Below are positions 4,499 through 30,799 of a DNA stretch of 64,000 nucleotides, in pieces. A model generated the notes under the pieces. It made no database searches, had not been told where the DNA came from, and saw nothing but the letters and a program-made list of their open reading frames with translations. Position numbers and translations under genes: made by a program. Within the stretch, counting starts at the first letter, position 1. Each line of letters opens with the position of its first letter. This stretch comes from Gemmatimonadaceae bacterium (GTDB taxonomy: Bacteria; Gemmatimonadota; Gemmatimonadetes; Gemmatimonadales; Gemmatimonadaceae). Location: positions 186,001 through 250,000 of the forward strand of contig JAICWO010000006.1 in assembly GCA_025934775.1 (NCBI GenBank), in the 5' to 3' direction.

Positions 4499-7400
4499 AT
4501 GCGAATCTCTGCCTGTCGGGCCGCAATCGTCGCCACGTTCGGATTCGTCGTGATGTGCCAAACAGCATGCGCGCACGGCGATGCCGGAACGAGTCCGGAG
4601 ATGAGAGCGAAGTCGATCGTGGTCGCGCCCGACACACTCACACTAGTGGTCGGGCACTCGGGTCGATTGTCCGCGACAGTCCGTGACGCGGCGGGCGCGC
4701 CGTTGGATCGCGCGGGCGTGCGATGGTCGGTCGGCGACAGCACGGTTGCGACCGTGGACCAGAGCGGCGGCGTCAGCGCGCGAACGTTCGGCACCACGAC
4801 GGTGCTTGCCTCGTCCGGGGCCGTTTCAACGACCACACCCGTGATTGTGTCGTACGCGAACAGTGACTCGGCGAGCGTGCGCTCCAGCGACTCCGTGCAC
4901 GTTGCTGTTGCCAGCGGATCCACGATCGATGTGCCAGTCGGGGCGCTCCCGGCGGGCGTCAGCGTGGCGCTCAGTCAGGTTGGAATTCCATCGGATGTCG
5001 ACACCGCGGGAATGGGCGTTATGGGGAGCGCCGTCGAGGTCGACCTGTCATCGGGATCCGCGACAGCGCTGCGGACGTCGTCGACAGCGCTTCGAAGCGC
5101 CGCGCTGTCCTCACGCGGTGTACGTCTGAAGATCAGGCAACTCGTTACCGACTCGAGAGCGGATATCTCAAGAGCGTTCGTCGTTCTACACGATGCTGGG
5201 AAAGCCGTGGGACACACCGCTACCACGGTCGCAGTGAACGCGGCCGACGCCGCCGTCACGGTCGACAACCTGGGCCGACGGTTCGTCGAGGTATCGATCT
5301 ACGACCCGATCATGCGATCCCCCGTCACCGAGGTGGGAGGAAAAATCGCGTACACGGCGATGCTGGCGTTCTCATCCACCACGTGCGACCCGTCCGCATG
5401 GTCGGTCTATCCCGCATCCGGCATCGCCCCATCGCCGAACAAAGTTCCAATCATCCTGATTCACGGCTGGCAACCGCTGCGGTTCACCTGTGGTCTCGAG
5501 GCCGATTACTCGCCGGATGTTCTCGGAGAGAGTTGGGGCTCCCTGATCGCGACACTCTCGGCAGATCCGTCGATTCGCGATCGCTACGAAGTCCTGATCG
5601 CCAAGTACCCGACGTTCTACTCGATCGACCAAAACGCGGAGAGTATCGCCCCGATCCTCTCCAAGCTGATCGGAAATCGCGAGGCGATTGTGATCGCCCA
5701 CAGCATGGGAGGCCTGCTCGCCGCGAAGTACATGATCGGCACGCCGGCCAATCGCGTGCACGAGCTCGTGACGTTGGGCACTCCTTTTACGGGTAGCCCA
5801 CTCGCCGACCCCCTCCAACTCGACGCGAATGCACGTAGCACCTACATACAGCTCGCGCAGCAAGCGAAAATCTCTGAAGTGATGGACTATCTGAGCGGAG
5901 GTCCGATTCTCGGGTCTGCGGGCGCTGGTGACCTGGCGTCGAATCCGCGATCTCCTTTCCTCGGCGAACTCGCGAACGGCAAGGCCGCGTTTGCATCGAA
6001 GCTTGTCGCTATCGCAGGGAACGTGAGCACGCCCGATCTGATCGAACTCGCGTCATCATCTGCAAGTACTGTCGACGACAAGTTCTCCGCGGCGAGTGGT
6101 CTCTTGCTCGCCGCTATGCAGCAAGGCCCCAGCGATGGCGTCGTTCCACTCGCGAGCGCCCAAGCCTACGGGACTCCCGGCCGGACCTTCACACTCGATC
6201 ACTTCGAACTCCCGACTACCGCATCCGCGATGGCTTCGGTGAAGTCAATCCTGGCGGATCTAGTGGGGCGCGTCGCGGCCGCCCCGTCGGCCATTGTTCG
6301 CGTGTCCGGCGACGCGCAAGTCGGCTCGCCGAGCGGCCCGCTGCCGGAGCCGATTGTGGTCCGGGTTCAGGATGCCTACGGCGTCGGCGCGCCCGGAATC
6401 CCGGTGACCTTTAGCGTGACGTCCGGCGGCGGTTCAGCATCGGTCGGAAGCACCACCACCGACGCCAGCGGCGAAGCTCGCGCGTCGTGGACGCTCGGTC
6501 CTACGGAAGGTCTGAATTCGCTGCAAGTCAGCGCCGCCGGAGTAAGCAGCGGCACGGCACAGTTCACCGCAACAGCCGTAATACGGACCGCGACGACCCT
6601 TGCGGTGATCGGGGGCTCCTCGACCACGATCGCAGGGCAGCCATTTCCGGACCAACCTCGCGTTCAGGTCCAAGATGCGTTCGGTCAGCCTGTCACCAGT
6701 AGTGCCGCGTCCGTTACGGCTTCAGTGATCAATTGGACTGGCGTGCTCACAGGAACGAACACCGCAATCGCGAGCGGCGGCGACGCGCAATTCACGAATC
6801 TTGGCTTGAGTGTCCACGGTGGCTACACGATTCAGTTCTCATCACCCGGACTGACACCGGTGGTCTGGCCGGTTTGTGGTATGTACGGTGTTTCGGCGCC
6901 GTTCACGATCTTTGGGAATCTCAACAGTTCCAGTTGCTCGGACGGTGACGCTGGCCTGACGTCCGGTGATCTATTCGCATTCTCAGTCGGTGCGCAAACT
7001 GGGTTGCGCCTGAGCACGAATCCGACAGCCTTCGCCTCGCGGGTCGCACTGAGAGCATCCCGTGTCGCGGCCGGTTACATCTATTGGGACGCGCCGGGCG
7101 GAGTAGCAATCAATCACAAGTGGCTGCTGCCCGCGAACGCGTACACGAGTCTCTTCGGAACGCCCGACGGCGGGACCGGGCCGTACTCGTTGTTCGCGTC
7201 TCGTGAATCCGAAGGCACGTCGGACTGCGAGGTTGTCACGCTTCTCGGTCAAGACATCACGACCGCCCAAGCGTTGTCGACTTCGGGATGCAGCAGCGGT
7301 GGCTACTTCGAGTCGTGGTTCGCCGTGTATTCGTGGCAGGCGTGCACGATCAGCATGAGTTCTGCCAGCTTCGATACCTATCTCGAAGCGTACGATCAGG

Positions 7401-8113: not shown

Positions 8114-10630
<2,517 letters not shown>

Positions 10631-13028: not shown

Positions 13029-14496
13029 TCGTGCCGGACGAGTCGTCATCGCCGAAGCACATGCGGCAACCGCCGGCGCGCTCTCCTGGCTGCTGCGCGA
13101 GCAGGGGTACGCGGTCACGGCCGTGTCCGACCGCCACGAGTTGTTCGATGCGATCGCGCGCACCGTACCCGACCTGATACTGATCGATGGCGACGTCGTG
13201 CAACGCGACGGCGCCATCATCGGCCAGCTCCGCGCCGATCAGCGCTGGCACGACGTGCGCGTGATCGTCACCGCGCCGTGGGCCGCGGTGGAAGACGGGG
13301 GCGCCGGCTTGCCGTGGGGCGTCGACGACTGCGTGAGCAAACCGTATCGGGTGCCCGAGCTGCTCGGCCGCGTGCGTACGCAGTTGCGCGCGAGCGGACA
13401 AATTCGCGAGGCACGCGCCGCGCTGCGCGACACCACGGTAGAGCTCGAGCGCGCGCGCGGCGACGCGGCGAGCAACCGCCGTCTAGTAGACATTCTACAT
13501 GAGGTCACCGGCGAGCTCTCGGCAAACGAGATCTACCGCCTTCTGGCGCGCCGCGTGGCGCGAGCGCTCGAGATCTCGCACTGCTCGGTGATCCTCGCGC
13601 GCCAAGGGGACGCCGTCGGCACCATCGCGGCGGCGCTCGAGGACTCCACGGTGCGCGACGTGGAGATCCGGCTCGAGCAATTCCCCGAAGTGAGCGCGGC
13701 GCTCGAGTCCGAGCGCTCGATTCTCGTCGAGGACGCGTGCACGCATCCATTGTTCGCGGGAATGCGACAGGCCTGGGCCGCGGAGGGAAAGGACATCGAG
13801 ATCCGCTCCGTCGCGACGATTCCGTTCACCATCGATCGCTGGCGCTCGGGCGTGCTGTTCCTCCGCACCGATCGATTCGAGCGAACGCTCACGAGCGACG
13901 ACGTCGAGTTCGCGGACGTGGTGATTCGCGCGGCGGTCGCGGCGATTCGGCGCGCGCAGGCGCTCGAGACCACGCGGGCCGACAACCGGCGGCTCGAGGC
14001 GCTCGCGACCACGGATCCGCTGACGCGCGTGCTCAATCGCCGCGCGCTGCTCGACCGGCTTGGCGCCGAAGTTGATCGGGCGAGGCGATTCGATTCCGCG
14101 CTCACGCTGCTCCTGCTCGACGTCGATCACTTCAAGCAGATCAACGACACGGCCGGCCACCTCGCGGGCGACAGCGTGCTGCGCCGGCTCGGTGCGCTGC
14201 TCGAGGAGGCGGTGCGCAAGGTGGACATCGTCGCGCGCTACGGCGGCGAGGAGTTCGTGGTGATTCTGCCCGAGACGACCACGGATGGCGCAGTCGTTTT
14301 TGCCGAGCGGTTGCGGGAGCGCATCGCCCACCAGGCGTTCGACGTCGGGGTCGAACAGCCCGTGCATTTGACGGTGAGTGTGGGGATCGCCACTTTTCCC
14401 TCGCCTCGGGTGGCCTCGACCGAGGACCTCTTCGCTCGAGCCGACGAAGCGCTCTATCGCGCGAAATCCGGCGGACGCAACCAGGTGCGCACCTGA
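13000..14496 (+). CDS. Response regulator diguanylate cyclase (REC-GAF-GGDEF)
   Basis: The 498-residue soluble protein has a receiver domain at about 12-130: phospho-acceptor Asp in LILIDGD and the conserved Lys in CVSKPY. A coiled linker leads to a GAF-like domain (about 165-320, with SILVEDACTHPLF), followed by a GGDEF domain (about 330-498). The cyclase motif is GGEEF, an active variant, and an I-site RKVD lies five residues upstream. It should couple phosphorylation by an unknown kinase to c-di-GMP synthesis. No cognate histidine kinase is adjacent. It overlaps the preceding gene by 29 bases and the following start by one base (TGATG). Confidence 0.92.
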   Translation: MDFVSFSPGDRAGRVVIAEAHAATAGALSWLLREQGYAVTAVSDRHELFDAIARTVPDLILIDGDVVQRDGAIIGQLRADQRWHDVRVIVTAPWAAVEDGGAGLPWGVDDCVSKPYRVPELLGRVRTQLRASGQIREARAALRDTTVELERARGDAASNRRLVDILHEVTGELSANEIYRLLARRVARALEISHCSVILARQGDAVGTIAAALEDSTVRDVEIRLEQFPEVSAALESERSILVEDACTHPLFAGMRQAWAAEGKDIEIRSVATIPFTIDRWRSGVLFLRTDRFERTLTSDDVEFADVVIRAAVAAIRRAQALETTRADNRRLEALATTDPLTRVLNRRALLDRLGAEVDRARRFDSALTLLLLDVDHFKQINDTAGHLAGDSVLRRLGALLEEAVRKVDIVARYGGEEFVVILPETTTDGAVVFAERLRERIAHQAFDVGVEQPVHLTVSVGIATFPSPRVASTEDLFARADEALYRAKSGGRNQVRT

Positions 14497-15590
14497 TGAA
14501 ACGTTGTCCCACTTGCGGCACGACCTACCCGGAGGACGCGCGCTTCTGCACGCGCGACGGCACCCGCCTGTTCGGGCAGGCCGTGGCGACGGACACGCTG
14601 ACACCGCCCGCCGACCAGTCCGCGATCTCGGCGACGCCGCGGTCCACGGCGGCGCTTTCGCGCAGCGACGTTGGTACGCCGGTGACGCACGCCAACCTCG
14701 CCGGACAGACGCTCCAAGGCCGCTACGAGATCGTGAAGAAGATCGGCGAGGGCGGCATGTCGTTCGTCTATCTCGCGAACGACGTGTCGACGCGCGAGCG
14801 TTACGCGATCAAGGTGCTGTCCGCCGCGCTCTCGCAGGACGCCAACGCGATGGCGCGCCTTCGCCGCGAGGCGGCGCTCGGGATGCGGCTCGCACACCCC
14901 AACGTCTGCCATATCATTCGACTCGGCGAGACGGAGCACGGGCTGGTGTACGTCGTGATGCCGTTCGTCGAGGGCGAGATCCTCGCGGATCGCACGAATC
15001 GGCTCGGCCACATCTCGCTCGACGAGACGACGCGGCTGCTGCGCGACATGTCGGCGGGGCTCCACGTGGCGCACGAGCTCAAGATCGTGCACCGCGATCT
15101 GAAGCCGGAAAACGTGATGGTGAGCAAAGGCCCGGACGGCGTCGAGCGCGCGGTGGTGATGGACTTTGGTCTGGCGAAGGAGCGCAGAGCCGGCGCCGAG
15201 CTCCAGAAGCTCACGGCGACGGGGATCATCCTCGGCACACCGGAGTTCATGAGTCCCGAGCAGCTTCGCGGCAAGCCGCTCGATGCGCGCACCGACATCT
15301 ACTCGCTCGCGCTGATGACCTACGAGATGCTCACGGGCAAGCTGCCGTTCCAGGGACGCACGCAGCAGGAGATGATGATCGCGCGTCTGCGGAGCGAACC
15401 GATGTCGTTGCGCAAGATGCGCCCCGAGCTCGATCTGCCGGAGTCCGTCGAGCGCGTGTTGAACAAGGCGATGTCACGCAACCCCGACGACCGCTATCAG
15501 TCCACGCTCGAATTCGGCGACGCGTTCTCGGCCGCCGCCACCGAGCGCGCGGCCGACAGCGGGCTGCTCGGCAAGCTGTTCGGACGGTGA
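14496..15590 (+). CDS. Ser/Thr protein kinase with an N-terminal zinc-ribbon-like motif
   Basis: The 364-residue Hanks-type kinase starts MKRCPTCGTTYPEDARFCTR, a zinc-ribbon-like segment in which the fourth ligand appears to be missing. A Ser/Thr/Ala-rich linker leads to the kinase domain (about 71-335). It has the P-loop GEGGMSFVY, ATP lysine YAIKVL, catalytic loop HRDLKPENV, metal site DFG and substrate loop GTPEFMSPEQ. All catalytic residues are present. There is no C-terminal membrane helix or PASTA repeat, so it should be cytosolic. It is translationally coupled to the preceding cyclase gene and may act in the same signalling circuit. Confidence 0.93.
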   Translation: MKRCPTCGTTYPEDARFCTRDGTRLFGQAVATDTLTPPADQSAISATPRSTAALSRSDVGTPVTHANLAGQTLQGRYEIVKKIGEGGMSFVYLANDVSTRERYAIKVLSAALSQDANAMARLRREAALGMRLAHPNVCHIIRLGETEHGLVYVVMPFVEGEILADRTNRLGHISLDETTRLLRDMSAGLHVAHELKIVHRDLKPENVMVSKGPDGVERAVVMDFGLAKERRAGAELQKLTATGIILGTPEFMSPEQLRGKPLDARTDIYSLALMTYEMLTGKLPFQGRTQQEMMIARLRSEPMSLRKMRPELDLPESVERVLNKAMSRNPDDRYQSTLEFGDAFSAAATERAADSGLLGKLFGR

Positions 15591-17256: not shown

Positions 17257-18216
17257 ATGTCATCCGTCGTCAAGTTGCTGTCCTGCGCGACGATGCTCGC
17301 CGCATCGGCATCGGCTGCTCGCGCGCAGTCGACGCGTGTCGCTGACTCGCTGCTCCACGCCGGCGCGCTGGAGCGCGCCGAATCGATGTACTACGCCGCC
17401 GCGCGTGTGCGCCCGCACGACCCCGGCGCGCGCTGGGCGCTCGGCCGCGATTTGATCGCGCGCGGCGCCGGCCGTGTCGGCGGCACGCTGCTCGAGGAGG
17501 CGATCCGCTTCGGCGGCGACGCATCGCTCATCGGCGCCGAGCTCGTGCCGGTGTATCTCGAGACGGGCCAGTATGACAAGCTGGCCGCGCTCACCACCGC
17601 GTCGACCGCCGAGCGCGCGCGGGCGCGGTGGCTCGTGAATCACGAAACTCGAATCATCGCGCCGGACTCCGTCGTCGTCGCGCCGTTCCGGCGGGCGAGC
17701 GATGCACGGTCGCTCGGGCACGCGCTGCTGCGCGTCGATGGCCGGCCATACGATGCGGAGCTCAGCGCGCGCGTGCGCGGGATCGTGATCGCGGACACCG
17801 CCGCCGTCGCTCACGCGCTGCACCTGTTCGACGCGGGCGTGACGTCGCGAGCGGCGATCCCCGCCGCCGCTGATTCGATCTCGTTCGGCCGCATGATCGT
17901 GACGAACGTTCCCGTTACGCTCGCGCACACGTCGGGTGCGGCGGTCGTGATCGGGCTCGATGCGCTGGCGCCATTCGCGCCGCGATTCGATCCGCGTGCC
18001 GCGCGCATGACGCTGTACGTCGCGGCCGCGAGCCCCGGTGCGCGTGCGCGCGCGCCCGCGGGCAACGCGCTTCCGACACTCGCGCCGGGTTACGACATTC
18101 AGGTGCTCCGCGCGGGCGGCTGGACGAGCGTGATGGATCTACCGATCGCGGCGCTGCTGCGCGCTCGGCCGTGGGACTACATCGCGCGAAGCGGCGAGAT
18201 CGTCATCGAACCGTAG
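17257..18216 (+). CDS. Exported TPR protein with a degenerate retropepsin-like domain
   Basis: The 319-residue product has a signal peptide (cleavage near ARAQS) and one or two TPR-like helical pairs at about 25-110. A beta-rich C-terminal half follows. Its segments ALLRVDGRPYDAELS and VVIGLDALAPFAPRFDPRAA resemble the I-G-L-D...F-D-P pattern of bacterial retropepsin-like aspartyl proteases. The catalytic D-T-G is not evident (IADTAA occupies that place), so activity is doubtful. It starts 14 bases after the M1 peptidase gene. Its 3' end overlaps the convergent CoA-binding gene by 14 bases. Confidence 0.7.
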   Translation: MSSVVKLLSCATMLAASASAARAQSTRVADSLLHAGALERAESMYYAAARVRPHDPGARWALGRDLIARGAGRVGGTLLEEAIRFGGDASLIGAELVPVYLETGQYDKLAALTTASTAERARARWLVNHETRIIAPDSVVVAPFRRASDARSLGHALLRVDGRPYDAELSARVRGIVIADTAAVAHALHLFDAGVTSRAAIPAAADSISFGRMIVTNVPVTLAHTSGAAVVIGLDALAPFAPRFDPRAARMTLYVAAASPGARARAPAGNALPTLAPGYDIQVLRAGGWTSVMDLPIAALLRARPWDYIARSGEIVIEP

Positions 18217-18775: not shown

Positions 18776-19912
18776 ATGCGGATGCTCGTGTTGGGTGCCG
18801 GGTTGCAGGGATCTGCGTGCGCGTACGATCTGTTGCAGAACGATGACGTCGCCGAAGTGCGGCTCGCTGACGTTCACGTCGAGCATCTTCCGGATTTTCT
18901 CGCGCCATTTTCAGGACCGCGCCTGCTTCCGACCTCGCTCGACGTGCGCGATCGCGACGCGGTGCTCGGCGCGATGCGCGGCTGCGCCGCCGTGATGAGC
19001 GCGATTCCGTACTACTTCAATTACGAGATGGCCCAGCTCGCCGTGCAGGCGGGCGTGCACTTCTGCGATCTTGGCGGCAACACCGAAATCGTGTTCAAGC
19101 AGAAGCAGCTCGACGCGGACGCCAAGCGCAAGAACATCACCGTCATTCCCGACTGCGGTCTCGCGCCCGGGATGGTGAACATCCTCGCGCAATACGGCAT
19201 CGAGCAGATGGACGCCGTGGACTCGGTGAAGATCTTCGTCGGCGGGCTGCCGCAGCATCCCGAGCCGCCGCTCAACTACATGCTCGTGTACTCGCTCGAG
19301 GGCGCGCTCGACTACTACACCACGCTCTCGTGGGTGCTCAGGAACGCAAAGCGCACGCAAGTCCCCGCGTTGTCGGAGATCGAGCCCGTGCACTTCGACT
19401 TCGCGGATCTCGAGGCGTTTCATACGGCGGGCGGGCTCTCGACGATGGCGTTCCGGTACGAGGGCAAGGTCCCGACGATGGAGTACAAGACGCTGCGCTA
19501 TCCCGGTCACGCCAAGCTGATGGCGGACATCCGCGCGCTCGGCCTGCTCGATCTCGAGCCGGTGGAGGTGAAGGGGATGAACGTCGTGCCGCGCGACGCG
19601 TTCATCGCGTCCGTGATGCCCAAGCTGCACAAGCCGCATGGCCACGATCTCGTCGCGCTGCGCGTCGTCGTGACGGGCACCAAGGGCGGCAAGCCGGCCG
19701 CGAAGACGTTCGAGCTCGTCGACCGGTATGATGCCAAGCATCACATCAGCGCGATGATGCGGACGACCGGCTACTCGCTATCGATCACCGGCATGATGCA
19801 GGCGCGCGGCGAGATCAAGCCCGCTGGCGTCCACACGCCGGACGAGTGCGTTCCGGCGGTGCCGTACATCGACGCGCTGCGGAAGCGCGGAATCGATATT
19901 CGAGAGAGTTGA
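18776..19912 (+). CDS. Saccharopine/lysine-dehydrogenase-like oxidoreductase
   Basis: The 378-residue enzyme has a Rossmann NAD(P) site at the very N-terminus (MLVLGAGLQGSACAYDL), then the AVMSAIPYYFNYEMAQLAV and GVHFCDLGGNTEIV segments typical of saccharopine dehydrogenase and lysine-6-dehydrogenase relatives. PDCGLAPGMVNILA is also typical of this group. The expected chemistry is NAD(P)-dependent oxidation of an amine or secondary amine in lysine metabolism; the exact substrate cannot be read. I choose ATG 18776 because the Rossmann loop follows at once and GGAG lies upstream. The stop lies inside a heptamer inverted repeat. Confidence 0.85.
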   Translation: MRMLVLGAGLQGSACAYDLLQNDDVAEVRLADVHVEHLPDFLAPFSGPRLLPTSLDVRDRDAVLGAMRGCAAVMSAIPYYFNYEMAQLAVQAGVHFCDLGGNTEIVFKQKQLDADAKRKNITVIPDCGLAPGMVNILAQYGIEQMDAVDSVKIFVGGLPQHPEPPLNYMLVYSLEGALDYYTTLSWVLRNAKRTQVPALSEIEPVHFDFADLEAFHTAGGLSTMAFRYEGKVPTMEYKTLRYPGHAKLMADIRALGLLDLEPVEVKGMNVVPRDAFIASVMPKLHKPHGHDLVALRVVVTGTKGGKPAAKTFELVDRYDAKHHISAMMRTTGYSLSITGMMQARGEIKPAGVHTPDECVPAVPYIDALRKRGIDIRES

Positions 19913-19985
19913 GAGGGGAGAGTAGAGAGTAGAGAGTAGAGAGAATTCTCAACTCTCAACTCTCCACACTCCACTCTCATTCTCT
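19904..19985. repeat. Heptamer-array inverted repeat A, between convergent genes
   Basis: The left arm is a tandem array of GAGAGTN units (19904-19945). The right arm (19946-19985) is the reverse complement array NACTCTC. The centre is the palindrome GAGAATTCTC at 19941-19950. About five or six 7-bp units lie on each side. The element spans both convergent stop codons and could fold into a long imperfect hairpin, so it probably works as a bidirectional terminator. Confidence 0.85.
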
Positions 19986-21560
19986 CACGAACGACGCCAT
20001 CGTCGCGCCGATCTGGTCCATCGCCGCTTTGGCGTTCCAGCGGTCGGCGCCGTTGTAGATCAGCGAGAACGCCAGCACCTCGCCGTTCCGCGCGGTCACG
20101 TAGCCGCCCAGCGCCGCGACGGTGTTCGTGGTTCCGGTCTTGGCGTGCAGGTTGCCGCGCGACGGAGCGCCCTTCCCATGACGCTTGAGCGTCCCCGACT
20201 CACCCTCGACCGGGAGCGCGGCATGAAAGACGGGGCCCCAGTCCGCGTGGTGCACGAAGCCGAGGAGCTGCACCATCGAGCGCGGCGTCACGTGGTCGAG
20301 CTGCGAGAGCCCGCTGCCGTCGGAGACGTCGACCACGGTCTGCGAGGTGCCGACCTTGCTCGAGAGAAACTGGCGCAGGTACGTCAAGCCATTTGCCGCC
20401 GAGCCGACCTGCTTCGTCGCGTCGTGCTCCGTCTCGCGGAACAGCAGCTCGGCGTACAGGTTGATGCTCTCACGATCCATCTCGCCGATGATCTCGGATA
20501 GCGGCGGTGAGGTCACGGCGGCCACCTCGGCGGCGCCGGCCGGCGTCGCGCCGACGCGCGTTTGCCCGTCGACGGTGATACCGAGCTTCTGGAGCGACGC
20601 GCGCAGCGCGCCCGCCGCGAAGACGGCCGGATTGTCGACCACGAGCGAATACTTGAGCGGACCGGAGTGCGCACCGATCGAGCCGCGGACCGCGATCGAT
20701 CCGTCGGACTGGCGCGATGCGCGGATCGATCCACCGCTGCCGCCGGTCAGCCGCACGGAGCTCTGAACGGGGATCGCGGTGGAAGCCGGATCGAGCGTCA
20801 CCGAAGCCGACTTGCCGTTGGGCTGCACCACGACCCAGACGAGATTCTCGTTGAGCGAGAGCGCCGACACGCGCGCGGCGTAGGAGGCGCCGAGGTAGCT
20901 GGTCTTCCAGCCGTCCGGCACGAGCTGGCCGTCGAACGCGGACGCGTCGCCGACAATGTCGCCGCGAACGTGCTTCACGCCGGCCGCGGCGATCTCGCGC
21001 GCGAGCACGTCCATCGGCTCGGAGTCCTTCCAGAAACGCGGACTGAGCGACGGGTCGCCGCTGCCGCGGAGATACAAGCTGCCGGTGAGCGTGCCGTCGG
21101 CGCCGATCTGCCCGTCGCGAAGCACCGGGGTATGGAAGCGGTAGTCCGGACCGAAGTGGTCGAGCGCGATCGCCGACGTGTACATCTTCATCGTGGACGC
21201 GGGCTGCATCGGCGCGTCCGCGTTCTGCGCGAAGAGCGTGTCGCCGCGCGTGAGCGAGACGATGATCGCGCCCCACTGGCCGCTCCGCGTGTGGGCGGAG
21301 AGCGCCGCGCCGACGTCGCTCGCCAGCTGGCTAGCGCCGTGCGGCGCCGTCCACGCGGGTCCGCTCGCCTTTTTCTTCGCGCTGGATTGAGACTTCTTGG
21401 TCGCGCGGCGCTTGGGCCGGGTGGTGCTGCTCGACGATCCGCGCGAAACCGCCGCACGCAGCGAGGGCTGCTGCGCGGCGAGTACGGTTGGCGCGCCGAA
21501 CATCGCAATGGCGAGCAGCAGCGTGCTCTGCCGCTGTGCGCGGCGGAAGGCGGACGTCAT
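19977..21560 (-). CDS. dacB: D-alanyl-D-alanine carboxypeptidase/endopeptidase (PBP4 type)
   Basis: The 527-residue periplasmic class C penicillin-binding protein trims or cleaves peptidoglycan cross-links. A signal peptide (SAFRRAQRQSTLLLAIAMFG) precedes a basic, Ser/Lys-rich linker (about 50-70). The catalytic motifs are PASTMK (SxxK), ESINLYAE (SxN) and HAKTGT (KTG). A long insert between SxxK and SxN is typical of PBP4. ATG 21560 is chosen because it starts the signal peptide. The unusual basic linker may bind the wall or membrane. It is convergent with the preceding oxidoreductase gene across repeat A. Confidence 0.92.
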   Translation of the reverse strand: MTSAFRRAQRQSTLLLAIAMFGAPTVLAAQQPSLRAAVSRGSSSSTTRPKRRATKKSQSSAKKKASGPAWTAPHGASQLASDVGAALSAHTRSGQWGAIIVSLTRGDTLFAQNADAPMQPASTMKMYTSAIALDHFGPDYRFHTPVLRDGQIGADGTLTGSLYLRGSGDPSLSPRFWKDSEPMDVLAREIAAAGVKHVRGDIVGDASAFDGQLVPDGWKTSYLGASYAARVSALSLNENLVWVVVQPNGKSASVTLDPASTAIPVQSSVRLTGGSGGSIRASRQSDGSIAVRGSIGAHSGPLKYSLVVDNPAVFAAGALRASLQKLGITVDGQTRVGATPAGAAEVAAVTSPPLSEIIGEMDRESINLYAELLFRETEHDATKQVGSAANGLTYLRQFLSSKVGTSQTVVDVSDGSGLSQLDHVTPRSMVQLLGFVHHADWGPVFHAALPVEGESGTLKRHGKGAPSRGNLHAKTGTTNTVAALGGYVTARNGEVLAFSLIYNGADRWNAKAAMDQIGATMASFVRE

Positions 21561-21791
21561 GCCGGACGAGGGGGCAACAATGGTACCGAGGTCGAGGTTC
21601 GAAAAAAATCTTGGCGCGGTAGCGCTCGTTGAATGACGCGCACTGGTGGCGGAGCGTTGCGGGCTATGAGTCCTGACGCTGAGTTCGGGTTGTCGGACAC
21701 GGACTGCCACGGAGAACTGCCCGGGCTAGATGGAGAATCCAAAATCAACGCCGGATTCGTCGCGCGAGGAGTTCTCGCGCCACATCGAGCA

Positions 21792-23081: not shown

Positions 23082-23735
23082 TTAGTGGATGAGGTAGACG
23101 AGCGTGAAGATCGCGATCCAGACCACGTCGACGAAATGCCAGTAGAGCGCGGAGATGTCGACGAGGATCGCGTCCTTGGGACCGAGCCCGCGCTTCATGT
23201 CGATCGCGAGCAGCGTGACGAGCCAGAGGACGCCGGCGGTGACGTGCGCGCCGTGAAAGCCCGTCAGGGTGAAGAACGACGAGCCGAACAGGTTGGTCCT
23301 GATCGTGAGCCCCTCGTGCACGAACGACGTGAACTCGTACGCCTGGAAGCCCAGGAACGTGGTGCCGAGGATCGCCGTGACGAGGAGCCAGAGCTTGGAC
23401 GAGCCCATGATGCCCTCGTAGCCCGGCTTGCCCCGGTTCTCGACCGCGGCCAGCGCGAGCACCATCGCGAGCGACGACATCAGGAGCACGAACGTCGAGA
23501 CCGACGTCACGGGGATGTTGAGGATCGCGTGCAGGTGCGTGGCGCACTTGGGCGGATCGCACGCCTCGTGCGGGAACGGCCCGACGACGCTGCGGCCCTT
23601 GTAGATGAGATACGTGGAGATCAGCGACGCGAAGAGCATGCACTCCGAGCCGATGAACGCCCAGATCGCGATCTTGCGATGATCGAGACCGGTGCTCGTC
23701 GGCGGGTGCGCGTGAGTGGCGACTGCGGTGGCCAT
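23082..23735 (-). CDS. ctaE: Cytochrome c oxidase subunit III
   Basis: The 217-residue protein has about five membrane helices and the subunit III motifs WAFIGSECMLFASLIS, TGFHGAHVTAGVLWL and ISALYWHFVDVVWIAIF. Subunit III has no metal; it stabilises proton pumping by subunit I. The start at ATG 23735 gives MATAVATHAHPPT, matching the way the adjacent ctaD begins MATAAVSPAYAHAG. A heptamer inverted repeat (23741-23835) separates it from ctaD. Confidence 0.93.
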   Translation of the reverse strand: MATAVATHAHPPTSTGLDHRKIAIWAFIGSECMLFASLISTYLIYKGRSVVGPFPHEACDPPKCATHLHAILNIPVTSVSTFVLLMSSLAMVLALAAVENRGKPGYEGIMGSSKLWLLVTAILGTTFLGFQAYEFTSFVHEGLTIRTNLFGSSFFTLTGFHGAHVTAGVLWLVTLLAIDMKRGLGPKDAILVDISALYWHFVDVVWIAIFTLVYLIH

Positions 23736-23740
23736 TGCGT

Positions 23741-23835
23741 GAGAGTAGAGAGTTGATAGTGGAGAGTGGAGAATGAAAGCGGAGTCAACGTGGCTGCGAG
23801 TTGTTGCCACCCTCCACTCTCGACCCTCCACGCTC
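23741..23835. repeat. Heptamer-array inverted repeat B, inside the oxidase cluster
   Basis: The left arm has five 7-bp units (GAGAGTA, GAGAGTT, GATAGTG, GAGAGTG, GAGAATG; 23741-23775). The right arm has four complementary units (23808-23835). It lies between ctaD and ctaE, which are on the same strand, so it may adjust expression or mRNA stability of the distal genes. The unit is the same as in repeat A. Confidence 0.85.
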
Positions 23836-23839
23836 GCTG

Positions 23840-25837
23840 TTACGTGTGATTCGGCTCCAGCGGCGACGTCAGCCACAGGTACAGGCTCGCCGTCATCGCG
23901 GCGGCGAACACGAGGACGCCGGTGATCGCCAGATCGGTCTTGTCTTTGTGGATCAGAATCAGGCTGCCGAACATGAACGTCATGAACAGCGCGACGAAGA
24001 GCGGCTTGATCGTCGGGAAGGGCATCGGAATGCCGAGCTGCTCCGCCGTCTTGAGCGGCACCTTGGTCGACGCCTGCTTCGCGTTCGGGTTGATGCCGCC
24101 CTCGGGCGTGCCCGCGCTCAGATGGTCGTGGAACGCGGCCACGTGCTTGCCGCCGACCTGCACGTCGTTGCGCTCGTCGCCGTGCTTGCTGTGCGGCACT
24201 TCGGCGGTGAGTTGCGGCGACTTGACGTCCCACAGCGGATAGCGCGACGTCACAGTCGGGATCACGGCGAAGTTGTACTCCGGCGGCGGCGACGGGATCG
24301 ACCACTCGAGCGTCGGCGCACCCCACGGGTCATCGCCCGCGATCTCGCCGTTCTTGCGGCTGCGAAAGAGGTTCCAGAAGCCGATGATCACGCCCACGGC
24401 CTGGATGTACGCGCCGATCGAGCTCATGAGGTTGAAGATGTGCCAGCCCTGGCCCGCGTCGTACGTGTAGATGCGGCGCGGCATGCCGTAGAGGCCGGAC
24501 CAGTGCATCGGCATGAACGTCAGGTTGACGCCGATGAACGTGAGCCAGAAGTGCCAGTTGCCGATGGATTCGCTCAGCTTCCGGCCGGTGATCTTGGGGA
24601 AGTAGTAATAGATGCCGCCCCAGAGGCCCATGAGCGAGCCGGCGACGAGCACGTAGTGAAAGTGCGCGACGATGAAGTACGTGTCGGTCTGCTGCAGGTC
24701 GGCCGGCGGCGAGGCGTGCATCACGCCCGAGATGCCGCCGATCGTGAACAGCGCGACGAGCGAGATCGCGAACTTCATCGCGACGGTGAAGCGCAGGTTG
24801 CCGCCCCACATCGTGAAGATCCAGTTGAAGATCTTCACGCCGGTCGGAATCGCGATCAGCATCGTCGTCACCGAGAACACCGAATCCGCGATCGGACCCA
24901 TGCCCACGGCGAACATGTGATGCGCCCAGACGCCGAAGCCGAGGAAGGCAATGAGGATTCCTGAATAGACCATCACCGGGTAGCCGAAGATCGGCTTGCT
25001 CGAGAAGGTCGGCAGGATCTCGGAGACGAGGCCGAACGCCGGCAGGATCAGGATGTAGACCTCGGGATGCCCGAAGATCCAAAACAGGTGCTGCCAGAGG
25101 AGGGGATCGGCGCCCGCCGTCATCGTGTAGAAGTTCGTCCCGAAGAAGCGGTCGAATTGCAGGAACACGAGCGCGATCGTGATGACGGGGAACGCGAGCA
25201 CGAGCAGGAACTGCACGACGAACGCCATCCACGTGAACATCGGCATGCGCATCAGGTTCATCCCCGGCGCGCGCATGTTGATGATCGTCGTGATGAAGTT
25301 GAACGCCGCCGCGAGCGACGAGATGCCGAGGATCTGGAGGCCGAGCATCCAGAAGTCGATGTTGAGGCCCGGCGCGTACGCCATCGTGGTGAGCGGCGCA
25401 TAGCCGAACCATCCGCCGTTCGGCGCCATGCCCAACAGCCACGACGAATTCATGAACAGCGATCCGAACAGATACACCCAGTAGCTGAACGCGTTGAGCC
25501 GCGGGAAGGCGACGTCGCGCGCGCCGATCTGGAGCGGGATCAGGAAGTTGAAAAACGCCGCGGAGAGCGGCATCACGACGAGGAAGATCATCGTCGTGCC
25601 GTGCATCGTGAACAGTTGATTGAACGTGTCGGCCGAGACGACGTGGCCGTTCGGTCCCTGCAACTGAATGCGCATGATGAGCGCTTCGGTGCCGCCGATC
25701 GCGAACCAGGCGAGCGCCGTGTACAAGTACAGCGCGCCGATCCGCTTATGGTCGACGGTGGTGAGCCAGCTCCACACGCCGCTCTTCTCCGATGCTCCGG
25801 CGTGAGCGTAGGCTGGGCTGACGGCGGCGGTTGCCAT
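23840..25837 (-). CDS. ctaD: Cytochrome c oxidase subunit I (haem-copper, type A1) with a C-terminal extension
   Basis: The 665-residue protein carries the low-spin haem and haem/CuB centre that reduce oxygen and pump protons. Twelve helices span about 25-510. CuB ligands and the Tyr-His cross-link site are in FGHPEVYILILP, and other haem and CuB ligands are in GVWAHHMF and VAHFHYVLV. Glu in HPEVY places it in type A1. TGVKIFNW carries the K-channel lysine. Residues about 540-665 form an extension: a hydrophilic stretch and two more helices (LFVALFMTFMFGSLILIH and VLVFAAAMTASLYLWL). GGAG precedes the ATG. Downstream of ctaC. Confidence 0.95.
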   Translation of the reverse strand: MATAAVSPAYAHAGASEKSGVWSWLTTVDHKRIGALYLYTALAWFAIGGTEALIMRIQLQGPNGHVVSADTFNQLFTMHGTTMIFLVVMPLSAAFFNFLIPLQIGARDVAFPRLNAFSYWVYLFGSLFMNSSWLLGMAPNGGWFGYAPLTTMAYAPGLNIDFWMLGLQILGISSLAAAFNFITTIINMRAPGMNLMRMPMFTWMAFVVQFLLVLAFPVITIALVFLQFDRFFGTNFYTMTAGADPLLWQHLFWIFGHPEVYILILPAFGLVSEILPTFSSKPIFGYPVMVYSGILIAFLGFGVWAHHMFAVGMGPIADSVFSVTTMLIAIPTGVKIFNWIFTMWGGNLRFTVAMKFAISLVALFTIGGISGVMHASPPADLQQTDTYFIVAHFHYVLVAGSLMGLWGGIYYYFPKITGRKLSESIGNWHFWLTFIGVNLTFMPMHWSGLYGMPRRIYTYDAGQGWHIFNLMSSIGAYIQAVGVIIGFWNLFRSRKNGEIAGDDPWGAPTLEWSIPSPPPEYNFAVIPTVTSRYPLWDVKSPQLTAEVPHSKHGDERNDVQVGGKHVAAFHDHLSAGTPEGGINPNAKQASTKVPLKTAEQLGIPMPFPTIKPLFVALFMTFMFGSLILIHKDKTDLAITGVLVFAAAMTASLYLWLTSPLEPNHT

Positions 25838-27722: not shown

Positions 27723-28783
27723 TACTTCACCCGCTCCAACCGCGGGTTCTCGCGCAGCGCCCGGCCCGCCTTGGATTCGGCCTTGCCGTTCACCTGCACG
27801 ATGTCGGCGGTGAAATCGAAGCGGCCGTCGAACAGCGCCGCGCCCACGCCGTACGCGTCGACGGGCACACCATCCTCCTCGAACGCCCGAATGCGCGCGA
27901 CGTCGAAGCCGCCCGAGACGATGATCTTCACGTCGCCAAAGCCTTCGGCGTCGAGCGCGTTGCGCACGTTCCACACGAGCTGCGCGTTGACGCCGGTGGG
28001 ACGGAACATCCCCATGTGCGGCAGCACGGATTTGTCGACCATGTTCTCCGCGGTGTCGAGCCGCACGCCCCAGAGCCGATCCTCGAGCGCACGCGCGACC
28101 TCGAGGCTGGTCTTCACGCAGTCGTTGTCGTAGTCGACGAGCGCGATCACGTCGACGCCTTCGATCGCCTCGCAGAAGCGCTTCGTCGCTTTGACCGTGT
28201 CGCCGCCGAACGCGGCGATGAGCGCGTGCGGGATCGTGCCCACCGCCTTCCCGCCAAAGAGCGATCCCTGTGCCTCCGTGGAGACCATCTTCATCCCGCC
28301 GACCATCGCCGAATAGCCGTCGCCCGGCTGGGTGCCGAACACGTCGTCGCGCGCTCCAAAGAACATTGCCGGCTTGGACTGCGCGGCCTCGCAGACGAGC
28401 TTCGCGTTGGTGCAGATGCGCGTGCGGCGCGCCAGCACGCCCAAGCAGAGCGTCTCGAGGTGCGCGAAGGCGTCGTACGGCCCCTCGATCGTGAGCACGG
28501 TGTCCCAGCTCTCGTACCGGTCGCCCTCGTACAGCGCGTTCACGACCAGCGCATTCCAGTCTTCTGTACAGAGTTTGAGCATCGCGACGGCTTCATCGAT
28601 GCCGCCAAGCCAGCCTTCGTCCTTGCCGCTGAACTGCATCAGCACGCGCGGCGGCTTGCTCTCCCGGCGCACCACGTCGCGGGCGCGCACGAAGTACGCG
28701 TCCGTGAACACGCCGCGCGTGATCTGCTCGACGGGCAGATTGAACGCGGCGGGATCGATGCGTTTGCGGCGGCGGGGGGGCAT
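27722..28783 (-). CDS. pncB: Nicotinate phosphoribosyltransferase
   Basis: The 353-residue enzyme should make nicotinate mononucleotide from nicotinate and PRPP in the Preiss-Handler route to NAD. Recognisable parts are the N-terminal TDAYFVRA, the catalytic-face segments LETLCLGVLARRT and GTIPHALIAAFG, the phosphate-binding region DVIALVDYDND, and IIVSGGFDVARI near the C-terminus. It is shorter than E. coli PncB but matches the short bacterial type. ATG 28783 begins just downstream of repeat array C. The 3' end overlaps the next gene. Confidence 0.85.
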   Translation of the reverse strand: MPPRRRKRIDPAAFNLPVEQITRGVFTDAYFVRARDVVRRESKPPRVLMQFSGKDEGWLGGIDEAVAMLKLCTEDWNALVVNALYEGDRYESWDTVLTIEGPYDAFAHLETLCLGVLARRTRICTNAKLVCEAAQSKPAMFFGARDDVFGTQPGDGYSAMVGGMKMVSTEAQGSLFGGKAVGTIPHALIAAFGGDTVKATKRFCEAIEGVDVIALVDYDNDCVKTSLEVARALEDRLWGVRLDTAENMVDKSVLPHMGMFRPTGVNAQLVWNVRNALDAEGFGDVKIIVSGGFDVARIRAFEEDGVPVDAYGVGAALFDGRFDFTADIVQVNGKAESKAGRALRENPRLERVK

Positions 28784-28786
28784 GGT

Positions 28787-28943
28787 GGTCCGTGGTCCGT
28801 AGTCCGTAGTCCGTGGTGGCTGAGGCGCTGGTGGTTTGCGTGCGGTGGTCTGAAGCCCGTCGTCGTTGCCCACGTTCCACGGTCGATGGTCCACGGTCTA
28901 CGATCCACGGTCTACGATCCACGGTCCACGGTCCACGGACTAC
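28787..28943. repeat. Heptamer-array inverted repeat C
   Basis: The left array has four units (GGTCCGT twice, AGTCCGT twice; 28787-28814). After about 60 bases, the right array has ten units of the type GGTCCAC, GGTCTAC or GATCCAC (28874-28943). The innermost and outermost right-hand units are reverse complements of the left ones (ACGGACT against AGTCCGT). The element fills the gap between aspA and pncB and overlaps the aspA stop. The unit sequence differs from A and B, but the 7-bp period is the same. Confidence 0.85.
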
Positions 28944-30799
28944 GTCCCTACCATCTTCTCGGGATCCAAGACTCGGTCGAGCTGCTCCCTCGTCAGCAGC
29001 CCGCGCGCCATCACCACCTCGTACACGCCCTTGCCGCTCTCGAGCGCTTCCTTCGCGACCGAGGTCGCGCGCTCGTAGCCGATCACCGGCACCAGCGCGG
29101 TCACGATCCCGATCGACTGTTCCACGAAGTGGCGCATCCGCACCGGATTGGCCGTGATCCCCTCGACACAACGGTGCTGCAGCACCACGCACCCGTTCTT
29201 GAGCGTCTCGATGCTCCGCAGCAGCCGGTACGCGATCACCGGCTCGAACACGTTGAGCTGGAGCTGGCCCGCCTCGGCGGCGAGCGTCACCGTCACGTCG
29301 CCGCCGATCACGTCGAAGCAGACCTGGTTTACCACTTCTGGTATTACAGGATTCACTTTACCTGGCATGATCGACGAGCCCGGCTGCATCGCGGGCAGGT
29401 TGATCTCGCCCAGGCCGGCGCGCGGGCCGGAGCTCAACAGCCGCAGATCGTTGCAGATCTTGGATAGCTTCACCGCGCACCGCTTGAGCACGCCCGAGAG
29501 CTGCACGAACGCGCCGGTGTCGGCCGTCGCTTCCACGAGGTCTGGCGCCGTGATGAGCGGCAGCCCCGTGATCCGCGACAGCTCGCGGCACACCGCCTCC
29601 GCGTACCCCGGCGGCGCGTTGATGCCGGTGCCGATCGCCGTCGCGCCCATGTTGATCTCGCGGATGAGCGCCTGCGCCTCGCCGAGCCGCTCCACGTCCT
29701 CGAGCATCGTGTGTCCGAACGCGGTGAACTCCTGGCCGAGCGTCATCGGCACGGCGTCCTGGAGCTGCGTCCGGCCCATCTTGATCAGCGCGCCGAATTC
29801 CTCGCCCTTGGCCAGGAACGCCGCGGCGAGCCCGCTCATCGCGCCGCGCAGCTCCTCGATCGCGTGATGCAGCGCGAGCTTCACCGCCGTCGGATACACG
29901 TCGTTCGTCGATTGGCTCAGGTTCACGTGATTGTTCGGGTGAACCGTGCCGTACTCGCCGCGCTGCGCGCACAGCAGCTCGAGCGCGCGATTCGCGATCA
30001 CTTCGTTCGCGTTCATATTCGTCGACGTGCCCGCGCCGCCCTGGATCATGTCGACCACGAAATGCTCATGGTGCCGGCCCGCGCGGATCTCCTCCGCCGC
30101 GCGGACGATCGCGTCGGCGATGCGCGAGTCGAGCAGGCCGAGCGACGCGTTGGCGAGCGCTGCCGCCTCCTTCACCGACGCGAGCGCCTCGATGAGGGCG
30201 GGGAATTCCCGGAGCGCGGTGCCGGTGATCGGAAAGTTCTCGAGCGCGCGGAGCGTCTGCACGCCGTACAGCGCGTCGTCGGGCACGTCGCGCTCGCCGA
30301 GGAGATCGTGCTCGCGGCGCGTCCGCGCGCCCGTGAAGCCAAGCGTGCGGCCGCGACCGACGAGCGTCGCGTCGGTCGCAGCGAGGCGCTGCGAGATCGA
30401 GCGAGCGGCGCGCGCGACGAGCGCGGCGTACACCGTGGGTCGCTCCTTCACGAGCGTGCGCACCTGGTCGGCGGTGAGCACGTACGCTTCCGTGCGCTGA
30501 ATCGCGCGCGCGCTCGTGCCATGCGGCAGCTCGTCGAGCAGCAACCCTTCGCCGAGCGCTTCGCCGGGGCCGAGCGTCACGAGACGAACGGGGCGCCCGT
30601 TGGAGCCCTTCTCGATCGCGATCGCTCCCGCGACGATGATCGACAGGAATTCACGCGGCGAGCCCTCCTGGAACACGAGCTGGTCGGGCTCGTATGTGAC
30701 GGGGCTGACGAGCTGAGAGAGCGTGTGCAGCGCGGAATCTGGAACGCCTTCGAGGAACTCCGCTCCTCGAAGCCGGTCTCGAACGGCGGTCGGCGACAT
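28940..30799 (-). CDS. aspA: Aspartate ammonia-lyase fused to an N-terminal cyclic-nucleotide-binding domain
   Basis: The 619-residue protein has an N-terminal cNMP-binding (CAP_ED) domain at about 1-135, with beta strands, VFQEGSPREFLSIIVAGAIAI and LGEGLLLDELPHGTSARA in the phosphate-binding-cassette position. After a linker (about 136-160) comes an aspartase/fumarase-superfamily enzyme. The latter has QGGAGTSTNMNANEV, VHPNNHVNLSQSTNDVYPT, TGINAPPGYAEAV and the signature GSSIMPGKVNPVIPE. The LGERDVPDDALYGVQT opening and GTSTNMN favour aspartase over fumarase. Fusion to a ligand-binding domain suggests allosteric control; the ligand is unknown. It is divergent from the asparaginase gene. Confidence 0.92.
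   Translation of the reverse strand: MSPTAVRDRLRGAEFLEGVPDSALHTLSQLVSPVTYEPDQLVFQEGSPREFLSIIVAGAIAIEKGSNGRPVRLVTLGPGEALGEGLLLDELPHGTSARAIQRTEAYVLTADQVRTLVKERPTVYAALVARAARSISQRLAATDATLVGRGRTLGFTGARTRREHDLLGERDVPDDALYGVQTLRALENFPITGTALREFPALIEALASVKEAAALANASLGLLDSRIADAIVRAAEEIRAGRHHEHFVVDMIQGGAGTSTNMNANEVIANRALELLCAQRGEYGTVHPNNHVNLSQSTNDVYPTAVKLALHHAIEELRGAMSGLAAAFLAKGEEFGALIKMGRTQLQDAVPMTLGQEFTAFGHTMLEDVERLGEAQALIREINMGATAIGTGINAPPGYAEAVCRELSRITGLPLITAPDLVEATADTGAFVQLSGVLKRCAVKLSKICNDLRLLSSGPRAGLGEINLPAMQPGSSIMPGKVNPVIPEVVNQVCFDVIGGDVTVTLAAEAGQLQLNVFEPVIAYRLLRSIETLKNGCVVLQHRCVEGITANPVRMRHFVEQSIGIVTALVPVIGYERATSVAKEALESGKGVYEVVMARGLLTREQLDRVLDPEKMVGT

Follow-up and report, generated by a model that had tools for sequence, protein, structure and literature searches.

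A GAGAGTN heptamer array over two convergent stop codons in a Gemmatimonadaceae genome: one copy of a dispersed inverted repeat with a possible hairpin effect on transcripts

Does a repeat array that covers the stop codons of two converging genes serve to terminate both of them? The question is raised by a 64,000-nucleotide stretch of a Gemmatimonadaceae genome (the window), in which a saccharopine-dehydrogenase-like gene (sac, the "oxidoreductase" of the initial annotation) faces dacB across a gap of 64 bp composed entirely of heptamer array (Table 1). The initial annotation had described GAGAGTN units and their reverse complement meeting at a common centre and running through both stop codons, well placed to terminate both genes but lacking the T-tracts of a classical rho-independent terminator. 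The layout is confirmed: Tandem Repeats Finder places two period-7 arrays, at 19903-19943 and 19947-19979, the inverted-repeat search gives arms of 18 nt with 89% complementarity, both TGA codons lie inside the array and no T-tract directly follows the stem on either strand. Within the window 12 GAGAGTN matches (at most 2 mismatches) were counted against a shuffle mean of 0.02, and 0 of 100 shuffles reached 12. The outermost units are at the same time the coding ends of the two genes (sac ...RES*, dacB ...VRE*) and such C-termini are kept in most congeners, so the overlap of array and stop codons is partly codon sequence.

Table 1. Genes and repeat features of the window
Feature	Position	Strand	Remarks
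sac, saccharopine-dehydrogenase-like gene	18776..19912	+	Pfam PF16653, PF03435; TGA 19910-19912 in array
dacB, D-Ala-D-Ala carboxypeptidase, S13 family	19977..21560	-	Pfam PF02113; TGA 19977-19979; start as called in the analysis, longest dacB ORF starts at 21710
Arm 1, GAGAGTN heptamer array	about 19903..19945	+	first unit 19904-19909 doubles as sac codons E-S
Centre GAGAATTCTC, perfect palindrome	19941..19950	.	predicted 4-nt loop ~19943-19946
Arm 2, reverse-complement array (CTCTCNA on +)	19947..19979	-	reaches dacB TGA; GA/CT-like sequence on to ~19987
COX3	23082-23735	-	
Second GAGAGTN dyad	23740..23836	.	fills COX1-COX3 gap; 3 nt from stop, 4 nt from ATG
COX1	23840-25837	-	
Sister dyad GTGGTCC / GGACCAC	28780..28948	.	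between two - genes: Lyase_1/FumaraseC_C + cNMP_binding, and QRPTase

As RNA the array is predicted to fold with -51.4 kcal/mol on the plus strand and -55.9 kcal/mol on the minus strand (z about -7 in each case; none of 200 shuffles folds as stably), and a transcript of both arms would form a long hairpin of roughly 6-bp helices interrupted at the variable seventh base. No Rfam family matched above its gathering score in the window. A stable GC-rich hairpin after the stop is what the array shares with rho-independent terminators, with the stop codons here inside the hairpin; it differs from them in the missing T-tract and in a stem of about 40 bp that is interrupted by mismatches at regular intervals. 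Gene-end hairpins are a habit of this genome: in gaps of 40-300 bp strong hairpins (z<-3) occur in 15 of 25 convergent gaps (a set without the GAGAGTN repeat), 6 of 75 divergent and 40 of 182 tandem ones. U-tract terminators are at background (8 observed vs 9.8 by chance in 20 kb) and a rho gene is present. In addition to the main rho match, the Rho RNA-binding domain has a second, weaker match (44 bits) at G000:C5:15412-15624, G000 being the genome under study. Since hairpins are common at convergent gaps, U-tract terminators stay at background and Rho is present, a contribution of the array to 3'-end formation at sac-dacB is plausible. It could even act as a bidirectional terminator without T-tract, where the hairpin with a weak pyrimidine-RNA:purine-DNA hybrid in arm 2, or Rho loading on this C-rich, G-poor arm, would end both transcripts. 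Apart from these features of the genome, the predicted stability on both strands and an arm 2 as C-rich as expected of a rut site speak for such a terminator, however the distribution of the repeat does not.

The array is a member of a dispersed inverted-heptamer repeat family. In the 4.88-Mb genome the GAGAGTN unit has 247 matches (at most 1 mismatch) vs 10 for the backward pattern, a control that is uninformative for units reading alike backward, such as those of the relatives G010 and G001. In a 464-kb sample (the window and 20 evenly spaced stretches; periods 4-15, then six, were tested) period-7 arrays are mainly intergenic, and other periods are few or absent there except 14, a multiple of 7. 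With a hidden Markov model of the unit, 45 loci (28 with two arms, 17 with one) were detected in 864 kb comprising the window, the 20 evenly spaced stretches and 20 more picked around listed arrays, so that densities from the latter are inflated and the window with the evenly spaced stretches contains 11 of the 45. By the calls of a simple gene finder written for the analysis, on which all genes beyond the named ones are based, 27 loci are placed between tandem, 7 between convergent and 4 between divergent genes, and 7 within called ORFs. Per junction, the convergent share (7/95) is hardly above the tandem one (27/521; divergent 4/95), which counts against a dedicated dual terminator.

The second dyad of the window, between COX1 and COX3, belongs to the same family, and other copies stand between genes which are taken, by their protein sequences and not by family search, to be sdhA/sdhB, gap/pgk and hslU/argF; the adjacency of these pairs is seen in relatives too. 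Efficient termination within cox1-cox3, sdhA-sdhB or gap-pgk is implausible because the downstream gene would be silenced, although transcription as operons is presumed here. The case against a general role as terminator rests chiefly on these copies. Together with the slight convergent enrichment and an orthologous sac-dacB junction without any gap in the congener G004, they make the bidirectional terminator quite unlikely. The initial claim of a site well placed to end both genes has some support in the stable hairpin and the hairpin-rich convergent gaps, and room should be left for a real termination role given the strong hairpins at most convergent gaps; the evidence falls short of a dedicated dual terminator.

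A typical copy has a G-rich arm followed by a C-rich arm and is located mostly right after a stop codon, often filling the gap to the next gene. In all 28 two-armed loci of the 864 kb the GA arm precedes the CT arm, an order valid on both strands because the element is symmetric. For 22 of the 27 tandem loci the upstream stop codon is no more than 10 nt away from their beginning, and for 13 the next start codon is no more than 12 nt away from their end. Gaps are filled by 11 tandem loci; of the remaining 16, which leave at least 30 nt free, 11 lie at the stop, where random placement would put 1.7 and none of 200,000 simulations reaches 11, and only 3 at the start. Four of the 7 convergent loci overlap both stops, sac-dacB included. 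A Shine-Dalgarno tetramer precedes the start in none of the 13 start-touching arrays vs 67 of 282 tandem genes overall. Avoidance of Shine-Dalgarno sequences was nevertheless rejected as a cause of the order rule, which is also kept at convergent copies, where there is no start codon.

The order does not depend on the unit searched for. In a unit-independent search of this genome 24 of 26 inverted period-7 pairs were G-rich first, the others being one tie and one C-first pair, a different element. In relatives the same search gave G-rich first in 2/2 pairs of G002, 7/7 of G010, 4/4 rows of G011 (3 places, two stretches overlapping) and 1/1 of G024, and close pairs of G002 in a separate listing, read off the list, were 7/7; the stretches of G001, G004, G005, G017 and G019 yielded no inverted period-7 pairs. 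Little can be learned about the rule from the GATCCTA unit of G001, which is almost a palindrome. G on the 5' side of G-C pairs makes up 56% in ordinary hairpins, a weak bias, vs 84-91% in GA loci of the same genome. Period 7 was rejected as universal, for G020 and one junction of G004 have period-8 dyads; those of G020, as read off the output, are G-rich first in 4/4 cases. The period-8, G-rich-first dyads are located in L141 (G020) at 31-121, 2701-2763, 8790-8876 and 17486-17583, and in L214 (G004) at 2451-2549.

Orthologous junctions, a comparison suggested in the initial annotation, were followed for 5 array-bearing junctions, and the sac-dacB array is not kept. The gene arrangement occurs in 20 other loci, with a gap or overlap of -4 to 1094 bp whose sequence is for the most part unrelated; in G004 nothing (0 bp) separates the two stops, and G011 has a different heptamer, CTAGTCA. 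At the sac-dacB junction of G008 (L040) there is a long inverted repeat with arms of ~45 nt and without obvious short period. Between cox1 and cox3 the GAGAGTN dyad of this genome corresponds to a dyad of AGGGTTT/AAACCCT in G002 and of GATCCTA/TAGGATC in G001, both congeners, and to 36 and 40 unstructured bases in G004 and G005. For sdhA-sdhB and gap-pgk, where this genome has dyads of 73 and 87 bp, the gaps of congeners measure 2-37 bp, with G004 as an exception (112 and 117 bp of non-heptamer sequence), and hslU-argF in G004 carries a period-8 dyad. Overall, the dyads of 73-104 bp in this genome face congener gaps of 2-40 bp or other sequence; none of the 19 congener junctions displayed has GAGAGTN and 4 of the 19 have a hairpin z below -3. 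AGGGTTT (at most 2 mismatches) has 66 matches in G002 and a single one across the five remaining genomes of the genus, GATCCTA has 17 in G001 and 0 in the other genomes of the genus, and GAGAGTN outside G000 matches in 6 of 58 relatives (G001, G003, G010, G012, G021, G024). Judged by these counts and the differing junctions, a heptamer unit is largely private to one species, GAGAGTN itself not wholly so, and the positions turn over.

It could be said that such arrays are neutral microsatellites, grown by slippage without any effect on the transcript and surviving where coding sequence and promoters permit, with the inverted order arising from the way of formation, e.g. fold-back synthesis off a G-rich nascent strand. 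The different units at the same junction and the sites not common to congeners fit this explanation, and so do the arms, which do not co-vary: their pairing within a locus equals 0.680 vs 0.688 between loci (3777 of 5000 permutations do at least as well) and their lengths are uncorrelated (rho 0.25, P 0.21). As the arms of one locus are not better matched and their lengths do not correlate, there is no sign of selection for exact pairing and the hairpin could be a mere by-product; the ideas of mirrored-copy arms and of a co-varying stem were rejected on the same grounds. Slippage has also been proposed for bacterial heptamers generally (cited in an excerpt of PMC4692102). However, fold-back synthesis should produce matching arms, contrary to what is observed, and the order rule without exception and the anchoring at stops in unfilled gaps need an extra cause, hence pure neutrality is regarded as somewhat unlikely, though it deserves to be taken seriously.

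The sac-dacB array belongs to a dispersed, species-specific family of inverted heptamers; tentatively preferred, at a confidence that stops short of probable, is the reading that this repeat acts through an RNA hairpin of REP-like effect and is not a dedicated bidirectional terminator. Slippage and insertion would drive the growth and turnover of the repeats at gene borders, which tolerate them, and their effect on the transcript would be akin to that of REP/BIME hairpins, shielding the upstream mRNA from 3'-5' exonucleases; termination would be at most leaky and Rho-assisted. At sac-dacB it is the symmetry of the array, and not an origin as dual terminator, that would let it serve the two transcripts. 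The 7 of 45 loci in called ORFs and the 4 between divergent genes cut against this reading.

Two other roles of the hairpin were considered. Within operons it may bring the stop beside the next start and let ribosomes reinitiate without Shine-Dalgarno sequence. The missing tetramer at start-touching arrays would suit such a bridge, and for several gap-filling copies the predicted fold leaves an unpaired stop-to-start distance of 3-23 nt despite a gap of 73-104 nt; however in most other tandem copies 29-312 nt are left unbridged, and the proposal is inapplicable to convergent copies such as sac-dacB, which makes it highly improbable. A wider proposal, itself very doubtful, assumes a gene-border element of free sequence: several species of the family would build gene-end hairpins from their own 7- or 8-nt unit, with unit and length free and a fixed geometry that puts the G-rich arm at the stop codon and the C-rich one ahead of the following start or stop. 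Inside operons, the insert would be folded out by the hairpin so that stop meets start and ribosomes pass without Shine-Dalgarno sequence, and at convergent genes the fold would protect both mRNAs.

The preferred reading, a REP-like repeat, has to be set against the known systems. REPs represent one conserved palindrome; the GAGAGTN element consists of two microsatellite arms of varying length without a single palindromic consensus and has no Y1 transposase (PF01797) with it. The genome search gave no match to the RAYT (Y1_Tnp) profile, with control profiles matched in 5/14, and a RAYT-mobilised REP was rejected on this absence. Likeness is found in the multi-copy extragenic hairpins near stops, inside or ending operons, of REP/BIME in E. 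coli and Pseudomonas, and REP hairpins near stop codons can lower translation when located within 15 nt of the stop (excerpt of PMC12306157). Inverted repeats of E. coli are, according to the portion of PMC6060812 consulted, enriched after stops, mostly as parts of intrinsic terminators, and depleted just before starts, with which the start-touching GAGAGTN arms stand in contrast. The TAACTGA repeats of Beggiatoaceae likewise form intergenic heptamer arrays, some across a stop codon, but they are direct and mostly just upstream of starts, with one indirect repeat reported (PMC4679880, in part).

The nearest relatives in form are the GGGAATC / GGGGA(C/T)T heptamers of Xanthomonas and Nostoc, described in the only paper found on intergenic heptameric stem-loop repeats of bacteria (PMC4692102, quoted here from excerpts); no literature on Gemmatimonad repeats was found. 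Most of them lie between genes; a Xanthomonas genome has about 180, with 70-75 pairs that are convergent on opposite strands and stem-loop capable, and they are nearer the 5' neighbouring ORF, under-represented between divergent genes and variable among related species; G-quadruplexes were proposed and the function was left open (PMC4692102). A 7-nt unit, many intergenic copies and inverted pairs (28 two-armed of 45 loci here) are common to both. The Xanthomonas and Nostoc units have G-runs, whereas GAGAGTN, read as sequence, has no run of three G, and for this reason the G-quadruplex was rejected as a common cause. Stop anchoring within a few nucleotides, starts often touched and congener units differing at the same junction also set GAGAGTN apart. 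Thus, as far as the excerpts go, inverted heptamers are already known from Xanthomonas (PMC4692102), and the units without G-runs, the stop anchoring, the G-rich-first rule and the unit turnover at orthologous junctions are new. The over-representation of heptamers in bacterial intergenic DNA is an old question, for which these genomes separate the possible causes: at one and the same junction the unit differs among species of a genus, and GAGAGTN lacks the ability to form G-quadruplexes, while the inverted, G-rich-first, stop-anchored geometry is constant. With natural alleles (dyad, dyad of another unit, no dyad) in the core operons cox, sdh and gap-pgk, the role of the hairpin is directly testable.

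Other repeats of this kind were noticed. The sister family GTGGTCC/GTGGACC, besides its dyad in the window, is present at L074 5745-5874, L077 12253-12339 and L095 12788-12887, at gene borders and with the G-rich arm first. Composite arrays, with blocks of GAGAGTN, GAGGTTG and CCACGGT in succession within one locus, were seen at L112 7840-8047 and L096 7046-7249, the latter not mirror-ordered. A second dispersed inverted element has the conserved ends GCGCCGGTCGCTG...CAGCGACCGGCGC and a T-rich interior of CGTTTTC-like heptamers; its sites are L073 ~14630-14740, L075 ~13110-13250, L083 ~360-540 and L096 ~6530-6650, and the sole C-first pair of the unit-independent search is of this kind.
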